Source: a virus. From it: a stretch of 64,000 nt of DNA. Under the pieces are notes generated by a model. It did no database searches. It was given only the letters and a program-made list of their open reading frames with translations, and was not told the origin of the DNA. The DNA is taken from IMG/VR virus record IMGVR_UViG_3300025141_000020, positions 124,001 through 188,000 of that record; one strand, 5' to 3'. Made by a program: the position numbers and the translations under genes. Shown piece after piece: positions 18,284 through 64,000 of the stretch; position 1 is the stretch's first letter, and the number at the start of each line of letters is the position of its first letter.

Positions 18284-20308
18284 ATGTCTATACACAGGTC
18301 ATATTTCAGTAAAAATAATACAATAATATCTAATAGTGCTACTAACACTGGTAGAAATCCCGTAACTCAATTATTTTATGGTAGAAATAGTTCACGATGC
18401 AAATTTACTGGATATAGTGGTGATACTTGTAATGATAAAACTGGATTCACTAAAACAGCTATTCATGGTTATAGTAGATTTATTTTTGATTTGGATTTAT
18501 CTGACTTAAGAACTAAATATACCAATTGTTGTATGCCTTTAACTTCTTGTACATATACTGGTGTATATGATGAGGCGGCGACCTTTAATTTTACATTTAC
18601 ATCTACAGGAGATACCATTAATTATATGAGTTTAGTTGACTCTGTTGGTTTAACTGTTAGTTATGTTAACATTTCTGCTAACACCGCCACTACTATTAAT
18701 GGTTCACACATTACTGATGGTGGTGGTAACCTATATACACAATTTATATATAATATAGGTACTACGTTATCAAATCAAGCTACAAATTTTTGTTTAGCTG
18801 TTAATGGTGTTAGTGGACATAATGGTAGTATTTTATGTACGTCTGATGGTGCTAATGTTACTTTAACACAAGCAGGTTTAGGTGCTTCAGGAAATACTCC
18901 TGTGTATCCTGGAAATCTTAGTAATTTAAGTGTTAATACTGGTAATTTTCAACTTATCTCAGATATAGTATTTAGTGCGACAACAAATCCTTGTTCTAAC
19001 GAATTTTGTGGTGGAGGGATAGGTACGGGCTTTGATACTTGTGATGGACAACCCTATTATTCAATAACTTACAACCCAGACGTTAAACACACTTTACGTA
19101 TGACAAATACGTCTAGTTTTGATGACCAATTGATAAATGGTAAGATTTTAGTTAATGATACTAGAAGAGCTACATCATTTACTCTGATGTTATATAAAGT
19201 GCCTACTTCAAAAACTTCATTATGGGATGAAGGTGTTGGGTATGACTATGAAGTACCTGCTGTTTCTCTTGAACCTGAGTATAACCTCACACAATCTAAT
19301 AGACCTAGTAATTGGATTAATAGTACAACTCTTTCGACTTGGCCTAACCCAGGAACTTATAATAACTTACTTCCCTCTTCTTACACTGTTTTAGCCACCC
19401 AAAGTTTTGATGCTGGTAATGAAGACATAGCTTTTAGTAGTATAGCTTTAAATAATGAAATTGGTAGTCAGTTAGCATCACCACAAACTGGTGTTACCTA
19501 TGGTATAGCTTTTTTACCACAATTTGAATTATTATCTGGTTTAACAGAAGCTTATTCTGTTGGTTTCTTTTCTAGGCACACCCAAACATATTTTGAGCCT
19601 TTCTTGGAAACTTCTTTTAATGATTATATAAATGATAGTAGGAACCACTTTGAGGTTGGGTGTGAAAATAGGTTATTTTTATACGCTTATGACTGCAATG
19701 GTGACCCTATGTGTTTCACACAGGACCCTGTGGTTTATATTAGAGATTGTAATGATATTGTAACTTCTACTATAACCGCTTCTACATTAACGTGTGGTGC
19801 TTACTACGTAGATTATACGATATTACCACCGTTACCACAGACGCCGCCTGTTCAATACACAGACGAATGGTCTAACCTTTTTGTGGGAGGCATATCACAA
19901 CCAAATATAACTAACGAGTTTATAATTCACACTAACGGTTATACTATAGGCACTACTGTTGTGAAACCAAAGATATTTGGTTATTCTGTTTCTGGTATTA
20001 AGAACGATGAAAAGATTAAAGCTGGTGATACTAGAAAAATATTTGTCTCTACTAGGGTTCCTTATACGGTAAATCAAGAAGTGTTAGTGGATAATATACA
20101 ATATAGGATATATGTTAAACAGGGTACTACTGAGGTGAGTGTTATTCCTTGGTCTAAAATAAACAAAACTTTTACTGATAATTACTTCTTATTAGATACT
20201 TCCTGGATGATACCTAACGAATATTACCTAGATATAAAAGCAACTTCTAATCAACAAGTAGATACTTATAGTAAAGTGATAAAATTTCAAATAACTAACC
20301 AATTATGA
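18284..20308 (+). CDS. Large beta-rich virion protein (tail or surface structure)
   Basis: The 674-residue protein is Ser/Thr/Asn/Gly-rich with scattered cysteine pairs (NCCMPLTSC, CSNEFCGG, YDCNGDPMC). Its last 100 residues resemble an Ig-like beta-sandwich (DEKIKAGDTRKIFVSTRVPY to YSKVIKFQI). The composition fits an extracellular virion component such as a tail sheath initiator, wedge or fibre. It has its own TATTTATA element 16 bases upstream and overlaps the following gene by 4 bases. No family is recognised. Confidence 0.6.
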   Translation: MSIHRSYFSKNNTIISNSATNTGRNPVTQLFYGRNSSRCKFTGYSGDTCNDKTGFTKTAIHGYSRFIFDLDLSDLRTKYTNCCMPLTSCTYTGVYDEAATFNFTFTSTGDTINYMSLVDSVGLTVSYVNISANTATTINGSHITDGGGNLYTQFIYNIGTTLSNQATNFCLAVNGVSGHNGSILCTSDGANVTLTQAGLGASGNTPVYPGNLSNLSVNTGNFQLISDIVFSATTNPCSNEFCGGGIGTGFDTCDGQPYYSITYNPDVKHTLRMTNTSSFDDQLINGKILVNDTRRATSFTLMLYKVPTSKTSLWDEGVGYDYEVPAVSLEPEYNLTQSNRPSNWINSTTLSTWPNPGTYNNLLPSSYTVLATQSFDAGNEDIAFSSIALNNEIGSQLASPQTGVTYGIAFLPQFELLSGLTEAYSVGFFSRHTQTYFEPFLETSFNDYINDSRNHFEVGCENRLFLYAYDCNGDPMCFTQDPVVYIRDCNDIVTSTITASTLTCGAYYVDYTILPPLPQTPPVQYTDEWSNLFVGGISQPNITNEFIIHTNGYTIGTTVVKPKIFGYSVSGIKNDEKIKAGDTRKIFVSTRVPYTVNQEVLVDNIQYRIYVKQGTTEVSVIPWSKINKTFTDNYFLLDTSWMIPNEYYLDIKATSNQQVDTYSKVIKFQITNQL

Positions 20309-20766
20309 AAAATATAAAAATAACTGAAAATGAATTAATCTCTCTTATAGAGAAAGTGGTTAATGAAAATCTAGGCTCAACACCATCATTAAGTGCTCAT
20401 GGAGGTGGTTTTGCAAATTTAGGAATGGCAAAACCAACTGATAAGTATAAAGACCTATATGAAGATGATGATATAGAAACTGAAGTAGATGAAGACTACG
20501 ACCAAGACCCTGAAGCTGAAAAATCAGCTGATATTACAGTAACAACACAACCTGGTTCAGATGATGAGGATGCGTGGATGGAAAGTATTGTTGATAGATT
20601 AAAAAGTAAACTAACCGAGGGTAAATGTCCTAAAAGTGGGTGTGTAACTAAACGTGGTAATAAATGGAGAGTCATTAGTAATAAAACTGGAAAACTGTGG
20701 GATGCTGAATATGATAGTAAAGCTGATGCGGAGTCGGGTTTAGAGGCTTATCACGCAAATCAATAA
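20305..20766 (+). CDS. Putative head-packaged protein with N-terminal leader
   Basis: The 153-residue protein starts with a class-B leader: KNIKITENELISLIEKVVNE, ending V-N-E at residues 19-21, followed by a Gly/Ser region. A central acidic stretch (YEDDDIETEVDEDYDQDPE) leads to a C-terminal domain, CVTKRGNKWRVISNKTGKLW, then YDSKADAESGLEAYHA, a small basic-aromatic fold of unknown function. It overlaps the previous gene by 4 bases. By analogy with T4 the leader would target it to the prohead and be removed by the prohead protease; this is inference. Confidence 0.65.
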   Translation: MKNIKITENELISLIEKVVNENLGSTPSLSAHGGGFANLGMAKPTDKYKDLYEDDDIETEVDEDYDQDPEAEKSADITVTTQPGSDDEDAWMESIVDRLKSKLTEGKCPKSGCVTKRGNKWRVISNKTGKLWDAEYDSKADAESGLEAYHANQ

Positions 20767-20809
20767 TAGAAAATATATATAATAAATAAAACCTAAAAAA
20801 TTAAAAATT

Positions 20810-20875
20810 ATGAAATGTGATTGTCAAATATGTAAGTGTGGTACGACATGTGACTGTACTTGTTGCGACTGTTAA
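20810..20875 (+). CDS. Cysteine-rich metallothionein-like micropeptide
   Basis: An ATG at 20810 opens a 21-codon frame ending at TAA 20873-20875. Nine of the 21 residues are cysteine, as CxC, CxxC and CC arrangements: CDCQICKCG, then CDCTCCDC. It is followed by a strong hairpin terminator, and a 43-base A/T-rich leader separates it from the previous gene. The density and spacing of cysteines are those of metallothioneins or small metal-cluster peptides. Without homologues, expression is not proven, but chance occurrence of this pattern in such AT-rich DNA is unlikely. Confidence 0.6.
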   Translation: MKCDCQICKCGTTCDCTCCDC

Positions 20876-20903
20876 ATAACAGTTAATTAAAAAATAAAGA
20901 TAT

Positions 20904-62997: not shown

Positions 62998-63011
62998 ACT
63001 GTAACTACACT

Positions 63012-63021
63012 AGTATTTATA
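63012..63021 (+). promoter_or_regulatory. Candidate late promoter element
   Basis: AGTATTTATA lies four bases upstream of the start of the last gene. Confidence 0.4.
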
Positions 63022-63025
63022 TAAT

Positions 63026-64000
63026 ATGCAAACGACATTTAAAGACATATTATTAAAGGAAGATTATACAGGTAATATGATTACCGGAGAATTAAGTAAA
63101 AAACTCGATAATACCCTTTTTACCCTTATTCATGTACTTGGTGGGTTCACCACCTCAGACGTTATTAACTTTGCAAGAAACGCAAACTATAGAGAACGTA
63201 GACTATTAGATAAGATGGTTAATGACTTACCTTTATCGGATAGACCTTTTGATAAGGAGATGATTAAAAATTCTTCTAGATATCGAGCTTTAACGGTTTT
63301 TATTCAAGTTATAGGTGACTCTTCTAATGTTAATGAATCGTATGTAATTAATAGAGATTTACCGGAACATATAGATAATCAATTATATTTTCTATCACAC
63401 TATATAGGTGGATTTACCACAATGGATGTTGGTCGTTTTGTTAACAACTCTACTCCTAAACAAATTAAAAGACTTGGTCTATTACTTAATAGGATTCCTT
63501 CAGACCAATATGAATTAATTCCTTTAGCTGGAATGTACAAATCTATATATGATAGTCCAGACTATCAAAAACTAATATCTTTAATTCTAGGTACCTTAAC
63601 TGAAGATGTACAATATGACGCAGAGGGGTATCCCACCACAGACACTAACCCATATTTTACACAATACGTTACTCCTGAAATAAAAAAACAAATATTCGGT
63701 TATTGGGGCAAACATGGAATCTGTTATGATTGTTTAAAATATTTTGGTGTCGATGTGGAGGAGGAGGATATGGAAGGTTATACTGATTTTAGAAATATTA
63801 GTGATATTGTATACCCACTATTAGTTATGGAGTATGGTGGTGGTCTAGAAAGCTCTGAGTTTGCAAAAGCTCCGTGGAAATACACTAATGAGATGGGTTT
63901 TAATAATCTAAAGTTTAAAGTAGAACCTATTAGGTTTGACTACATGTTTGATGAATCTGAAAATTTTGGTGAGCATGGTTACGCTTGTTGGGATATTAGG
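63026..64000 (+). CDS. Large virion-type protein with short leader (truncated by window end)
   Basis: A frame of 325 codons opens at ATG 63026 and is still open at the edge. It begins QTTFKDILLKEDYTGN, with L-K-E at residues 10-12 resembling a short leader end. Two internal segments are similar to each other: LIHVLGGFTTSDVINFARN and LSHYIGGFTTMDVGRFVNN, indicating a duplicated motif. No family is recognised. The leader-like start suggests head cargo. Confidence 0.6.
   Translation, partial: MQTTFKDILLKEDYTGNMITGELSKKLDNTLFTLIHVLGGFTTSDVINFARNANYRERRLLDKMVNDLPLSDRPFDKEMIKNSSRYRALTVFIQVIGDSSNVNESYVINRDLPEHIDNQLYFLSHYIGGFTTMDVGRFVNNSTPKQIKRLGLLLNRIPSDQYELIPLAGMYKSIYDSPDYQKLISLILGTLTEDVQYDAEGYPTTDTNPYFTQYVTPEIKKQIFGYWGKHGICYDCLKYFGVDVEEEDMEGYTDFRNISDIVYPLLVMEYGGGLESSEFAKAPWKYTNEMGFNNLKFKVEPIRFDYMFDESENFGEHGYACWDIR

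Follow-up and report, generated by a model that had tools for sequence, protein, structure and literature searches.

Why do many proteins of one phage, otherwise dissimilar, begin with the same short peptides? The question is raised by a 64,000-nucleotide stretch of viral DNA (the window), bases 124001-188000 of IMG/VR record IMGVR_UViG_3300025141_000020, which is a 210,568-base uncultured T4-like phage. An earlier note on the window had claimed that at least ten proteins with unrelated bodies have a common N-terminal leader ending in [ILV]-x-E, and had read these leaders as capsid-targeting sequences (CTS) cleaved in the manner of the T4 protease gp21. We inspected every N-terminus among the 205 genes called in the whole record, with gene starts as set by a simple caller. 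The N-termini named in that note were all found where it had placed them, each ending in the motif, and the set proved larger than claimed. There are 16 clear leaders in the genome (4 of class A, 10 of class B, 1 of class C and 1 of class D), and about 25 when weaker ones are counted (those of genes 33892, 32572 and 43053, named by their first coordinate in the window, and several outside it). Overlooked before were an internal class A leader in gene 59234, the leader of head-module gene 32572 and, beyond the window, eight or more leader genes.

We conclude that the leaders are very likely T4-type capsid-targeting propeptides that are cut by a peptidase S77 protease and have been expanded into a tag system of several classes. 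Sequence comparison established their modularity, position, invariant site and point of exchange, and their link to protease and head genes; it also indicates that the virus head is the probable destination of the leader-bearing proteins and the place where they are trimmed.

Leaders in the window

Leaders are approximately 9-34 residues long, 20-22 in most cases, and belong to four classes: A, INRxREIMGL..[IL]xE; B, RLTESDLxxIVKRVIxE; C, LIKKILxE; and D, EEKNRILNLHxxATKxxYLxE. Those in the window are listed below, with a slash after the Glu.

51570-51671, minus strand: class A leader of gene 49281-51671, MVKKTIMNKKIIYELERAREIMGLKQPTNNLITE/Q, ending NNLITE/Q; the G006 orthologue retains the core and LNE/Q
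52046-52117, minus strand: class A leader of gene 51665-52117, MRESLQENINRVKEIMFDGEPLNE/D, ending PLNE/D
57926-57988, minus strand: class A leader of gene 56402-57988, MKKNILSEVNRAREIMGLIRE/Q, ending LIRE/Q; a leader-bearing homologue occurs in L014
62009-62071, minus strand: class A leader of gene 59234-62071, MKKQILTEINRTKEIMGLLNE/D, ending LLNE/D
61109-61162, minus strand: second, internal class A leader of gene 59234-62071 (residues 304-321), LNEINRVREIMGLKPLME/Q
20305-20367, plus strand: class B leader of gene 20305-20766, MKNIKITENELISLIEKVVNE/N, ending VVNE/N
52853-52912, minus strand: class B leader of gene 52496-52912, MKRIKISEEQLDGVLKNILE/Q, ending NILE/Q
62499-62564, minus strand: class B leader of gene 62082-62564 (start at the second ATG), MRKKISLKQDQLVKIIDKVITE/Q, ending VITE/Q
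43053-43100, plus strand: weak, shortened class-B-like leader of gene 43053-44153, MKLIITQRQSNLLIKE/A
21740-21841, minus strand: class D leader of gene 21254-21841, MKNIFSLTEEEKNRIRGLHLVESKDNRITSVLTE/V, of the form MKNIFSLTEEEKNRIRGLHLVES..VLTE/V
34798-34842, minus strand: short class-C-like leader of head-module gene 33892-34842, MPKNRKKLITKLINE/G
33862-33888, minus strand: short leader of head-module gene 32572-33888, MSKKIKLTE/APP

Some of these assignments differ from those proposed earlier. The 21254 leader had been taken for a variant of class A; it belongs to a separate class, D, whose matches in IMG/VR are N-terminal in 54 of 56 distinct cases. The leader of 43053, previously placed in class B, does end in the motif but is a weak member that falls under the 10-bit threshold of the class B profile; the G006 orthologue of this protein is 84% identical. 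The shorter related form described at 34842 is present, and its [ILV]xE/G is retained in 15 distinct relatives with variable residues upstream. Sec signal peptides were considered and rejected, as the leaders are, by inspection, charged throughout.

The internal leader of 59234 immediately precedes a distantly OmpA-like domain; in L345, L391 and L334 this domain is preceded by a class D leader at the N-terminus. The IMG/VR pattern scan yielded no relatives of the second half of 59234; these were identified among the other loci analysed.

A C-terminal module of approximately 48 residues (GCVTKRGNKWRVISNKTG..AYHAN) lies behind KLTE in 20305-20766 (plus strand). It recurs at the end of an 836-residue G020 protein (G020:81166-83676), where the class B leader before it is internal and complete.

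Leaders are N-terminal and end at a conserved Glu

A profile search over the genome and related phages, as the earlier note had suggested, confirmed that the leaders are N-terminal. With profiles of the four classes, there were 90 N-terminal matches in eight related genomes compared to 3 internal ones, although the search covered approximately 38,000 N-terminal residues and approximately 395,000 others; chance can therefore be excluded. Hydrophobic-x-Glu ([ILVMF]xE) was present at the expected end of 84 of the 90 N-terminal matches, against a baseline of 34% of random 18-residue stretches that contain it. Thus, a short N-terminal peptide is common to proteins with unrelated bodies, and the gp21 signature (L/I-X-E) at its end is conserved above chance, with some V and a few M besides L/I at the residue three before the cut (P3). 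In the source genome, a simple class B expression had 18 matches in the first 20 residues (overlaps counted), against 5 in the remaining sequence, which is fifteen times as long.

We also scanned degenerate DNA patterns of the leader cores over IMG/VR, ignoring start codons. The class A pattern NRxxREIMGL was found in 20 stretches, 19 of which (about 14 distinct) are leaders located soon after a Met, and [IL]xE lies a few residues downstream of the core in all 19, at variable spacing. An initial class B pattern was abandoned as too degenerate; with RLTESDLxxIVKR there were at least 120 stretches, and the 84 distinct ones that were read were all N-terminal. The class D pattern EEKNRIxxLH matched 87 stretches. 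Overall, leader tags are present in well over 100 IMG/VR contigs. As a control, a related class B pattern (KIKLTE), which is partly specific (about 5 of 11 viral matches are leaders), was run on 257 billion bases of bacterial and archaeal genomes and gave 40 matches, none of which is a leader.

The Glu was found in 83 of 83 class B leaders though it was absent from the search pattern, and P3 was I, L or V in all 83, with P2 and P1' variable. The information content was 3.6 bits at the Glu, 1.3 at P1' and approximately 0.2-0.5 beyond.

If the stretch acted in the nucleic acid, as a translation start or mRNA element, its position at the start of nearly every gene would be accounted for. Synonymous codons vary at the conserved leader residues, however, which contradicts that explanation and indicates that selection acts on the peptide. 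In addition, internal in-frame copies occur, and conservation ends at the protease signature at no fixed distance from the start codon. We regard a nucleotide-level function as the least credible of the explanations considered here.

Leaders are exchanged among bodies at the Glu

Orthologous bodies bear different leaders in different phages, joined exactly at the Glu, and this is the strongest evidence that comparison of the sequences offers. Head-module protein 32572 begins KIKLTE/APPIDY here and has RINE/APIGY or NLYE/APISY in orthologues; its G021 orthologue has a complete class B leader, RIVKE/APIDY. Protein 9989 has LLNE/GGIRD, as opposed to ILIE/SGIRD and IISE/GGIRN elsewhere. For an M23 peptidase with two domains, the leader is of class A in G021 and of class B in G020. 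Conversely, one leader can precede unrelated bodies: that of 21254, 34 residues long, shares 76% identity with the leader of an otherwise unrelated G006 protein, and the similarity stops at Glu34. In orthologues with bodies 90-95% identical, the leaders diverge and the motif is retained. The leader is thus modular and exchangeable among proteins, and the junction is the Glu.

These results bear on the possibility that the shared N-termini are remnants of recent gene duplication, left on paralogues whose C-terminal parts diverged and having no common function. Some leader proteins do have homologous bodies. The class B bodies, however, form 62 clusters with no detectable mutual similarity, the largest with 7 members, so that the carriers are not one family; because the sequences counted are not all independent, the cluster number is the more cautious measure. 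A nearly invariant leader on so many dissimilar bodies is difficult to reconcile with duplication, which is also contradicted by the class swaps on single bodies and by divergence of the leader, with its motif intact, on nearly identical orthologues. This origin is highly improbable.

Association with the S77 protease and the capsid maturation site

The genes for a gp23-type capsid protein, a gp20-type portal and an S77 protease are clustered in the window, forming a T4-like head module:

23401-25197, minus strand: major capsid protein gp23 (PF07068, 4.6e-73), with a predicted maturation site LINE60/A61 at 25018-25032
26869-27570, minus strand: prohead protease, peptidase S77, a relative of T4 gp21 (PF03420, 2.7e-27)
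28892-30727, minus strand: portal protein gp20 of the T4-type head module (PF07230, 5.6e-79)

A candidate scaffold gene is located at 25232-26701. The protease gene is inside the window, as had been claimed. Its product aligns with T4 gp21 (PDB 5jbl) at E 5.5e-17 and retains the catalytic-site motifs ELNHP and SSRG. The closest annotated capsid is that of Flavobacterium phage immuto (approximately 37% identity), so the host is likely to be in Bacteroidetes.

S77 was found in 31 of the 66 leader-bearing IMG/VR records searched, and in every one that has gp23 or the gp20 portal, including all nine records larger than 240 kb. The S77-negative leader records that were tested had neither a T4 portal nor an HK97-type capsid, and a terminase was found in only two of them, within 4 kb of a contig end. 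Because of this, they look like fragments ending before the head module, although one is 214 kb and might be an exception to the co-occurrence. The idea that leaders also occur in phages with another head type was rejected on the same grounds.

The earlier note had placed NLINE at residues 56-60 of the capsid protein, where T4 gp23 is matured. The motif is there, and LINE is invariant in the N-termini of 30 distinct relatives, followed by A or Q, with variable neighbouring residues. T4 gp23 is cut at LTE65/A, as read from its sequence. The N-termini of the two capsid proteins align weakly, and exact superposition of the two sites did not hold.

Proteins that carry leaders

Most leader-protein bodies have no recognised function. 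Those that were recognised are mainly active on peptidoglycan or bind it: GH24 lysozyme, peptidoglycan-binding domains, M23, VanY, a phage tail lysozyme domain and an OmpA-like domain below threshold. There was also one dual-specificity phosphatase. Pfam and PHROGs searches with the leader bodies of the window itself yielded a single marginal PHROG match and nothing more, and searches of solved structures with 59234, 43053 and 9989 gave no significant match. A sub-threshold Pfam match of gene 7679 (E 0.003, under the family cut-off) was set aside as unsupported.

The frequency of peptidoglycan-active cargo suggests help in crossing the cell wall, and wall enzymes carried in the head would fit delivery across it. 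Internal virion proteins of the T7 type are carried in the head, have peptidoglycan-cleaving domains and are ejected at infection. The lysozyme, M23, VanY and peptidoglycan-binding cargo would match these proteins; T7 is not known to have an S77 protease or an N-terminal tag of the leader kind.

Comparison with known packaging systems

The leaders resemble the T4 CTS in being short N-terminal propeptides on unrelated proteins, modular, transferable and ending in hydrophobic-x-Glu, in a genome that also encodes S77 protease, gp20 and gp23. To our knowledge, CTS peptides are not conserved even among the internal proteins of T4 relatives, and sequence similarity to T4 leaders was therefore not taken as defining. 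None was found for class B, the class compared: it was absent from T4, the two cyanophages S-PM2 and P-SSM2, GAP32, a KVP40-like Vibrio phage, immuto, Mel-JY01 and LR756508 (the N-termini of T4 IPI, IPII, IPIII and Alt were not compared directly). Likewise, tblastn of 22-24-residue consensus leaders against cultured phages gave no matches.

In T4, an N-terminal CTS of 10-19 residues brings internal proteins into the scaffold core, and gp21 subsequently cleaves after L/I-X-E (PMC9026906; PMC5694885). A passage of PMC9026906 that cites Mullaney and Black 1996 places CTS peptides cleaved by gp21 on IPI, IPII, IPIII and Alt. In IPIII, residues 4 and 7 mainly govern targeting and residues 8 and 10 processing; Asp at position 10 stops processing and leaves targeting intact (PMC9026906). 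Whereas T4 has about four tagged proteins, the source phage has 16 to approximately 25, in four classes and with internal copies.

Phages of the SPN3US/phiKZ type offer a parallel: their jumbo phage head contains many internal proteins, and from several of these a prohead protease removes a propeptide. There, paralogues with identical N-termini are known (gp53/gp54), but the propeptides are mostly longer than 100 residues, the motifs include AxE and SxE, and ejection proteins are not always processed (PMC5694885, PMC10052503).

We found neither the leader motifs nor a description of such a system in the open-access papers searched (bioRxiv and most subscription journals lay outside the search). 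The principle is known from T4. New are the existence of four unrelated classes, the scale on which tags are used, their swapping, the copies inside proteins and the broad distribution in the environment.

Uncleaved docking and other points to be weighed

The leaders could instead be N-terminal helices that stay uncleaved and dock onto, for example, a scaffold, chaperone or tail hub, with the Glu as a structural helix end. Class B does resemble an amphipathic helix by inspection, peptidoglycan enzymes in the cargo would also fit a tail location, and about 15 proteins that start with MKYLITESQ have the front half of class B and no [ILV]xE. On the other hand, unrelated classes with variable spacing all close their conservation at hydrophobic-x-Glu, body homology begins immediately after it, the site of capsid maturation has this signature in invariant form, and leaders co-occur with S77. 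Docking without cleavage is therefore unlikely, though less so than the nucleotide-level or duplication explanations.

Several observations count against targeting followed by cleavage. The MKYLITESQ proteins are among them, as the motif without the site means either that they may be packaged uncut or that the motif serves another purpose. P1' is mostly Q, D, N, S or E here, whereas cleavage of T4 gp23 and gp22 occurs at Glu-Ala. No class B leader was found in immuto, although this phage has gp23 and a gene annotated as prohead protease. Lysozyme and tail-lysozyme-domain cargo could be tail components or act at lysis. An unbiased genome-wide test of divergent N-termini was only weakly positive, with the site at the junction in 14 of 52 families compared to 8.8 expected; mostly non-head families were included and a wide margin was permitted around the junction. 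We found no virion proteomics for any carrier, and no cultured carrier in the collections searched. Taken with the nearly complete agreement of the other sequence tests, the interpretation put forward in the earlier note, targeting plus cleavage, is supported.

The MKYLITESQ proteins are approximately 100 residues long and clustered in G013, G004 and G021 (e.g. G013:3113-9168), and their bodies are related only in part.

Other genes in the window

Within approximately 30 kb of the head genes, there are genes for a full-length Hsp70/DnaK (38878-40749, minus strand), a ClpB/ClpC-like double AAA protein (40993-43035, plus strand) and a thioredoxin (55431-55739, minus strand). A phage tmRNA gene lies at 47559-47967 on the plus strand (Rfam RF00023, 123 bits; ARAGORN tag AKLATLGLVREGSTVAIA). 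By inspection, a run of genes at 1-16000 (plus strand) resembles glycosyltransferases, sugar-nucleotide enzymes and other surface-sugar genes. Three neighbouring small genes at 55922-56398, 58082-58609 and 58696-59223 (plus strand), opposite in strand to class A leader genes 56402 and 59234, encode proteins with a signal-peptide-like hydrophobic N-terminus and CAP/SCP-like sequence, with a PF00188 match for 58082.

A model for leader function

Because the leaders have the same architecture as T4 CTS peptides, we infer a T4-like order of events: core binding, packaging together with the core, cleavage and loss of the tag. Most likely, a leader binds the scaffold core of the assembling prohead and in this way brings the attached protein inside. 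The S77 prohead protease would then cleave after the Glu of [ILV]-x-E, freeing the mature protein inside the head and destroying the tag. In this lineage, tags move freely from one body to another and at times are found inside longer proteins, 59234 being an example. Ejection of the cargo, or its injection into the host, is a speculative extension by analogy with T4.

It is possible, and we propose it only tentatively, that this is a general protein-loading system in which several distinct, exchanged address tags load dozens of proteins into the head, to be delivered when the phage infects. Many of this cargo would be cell-wall enzymes, and some would be released from polyproteins. The tags would perhaps differ in the core component that binds them or in the time of their use, and the MKYLITESQ family may be loaded uncut.

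If the leaders act as proposed, at least 16 genes of one genome carry a readable packaging tag, and anonymous phage genes become a testable list of head cargo. Packaging tags would evolve as swappable modules, and those described here are candidates for bringing proteins of choice into large phage heads. The tags would also allow prediction of what such phages bring into their hosts.

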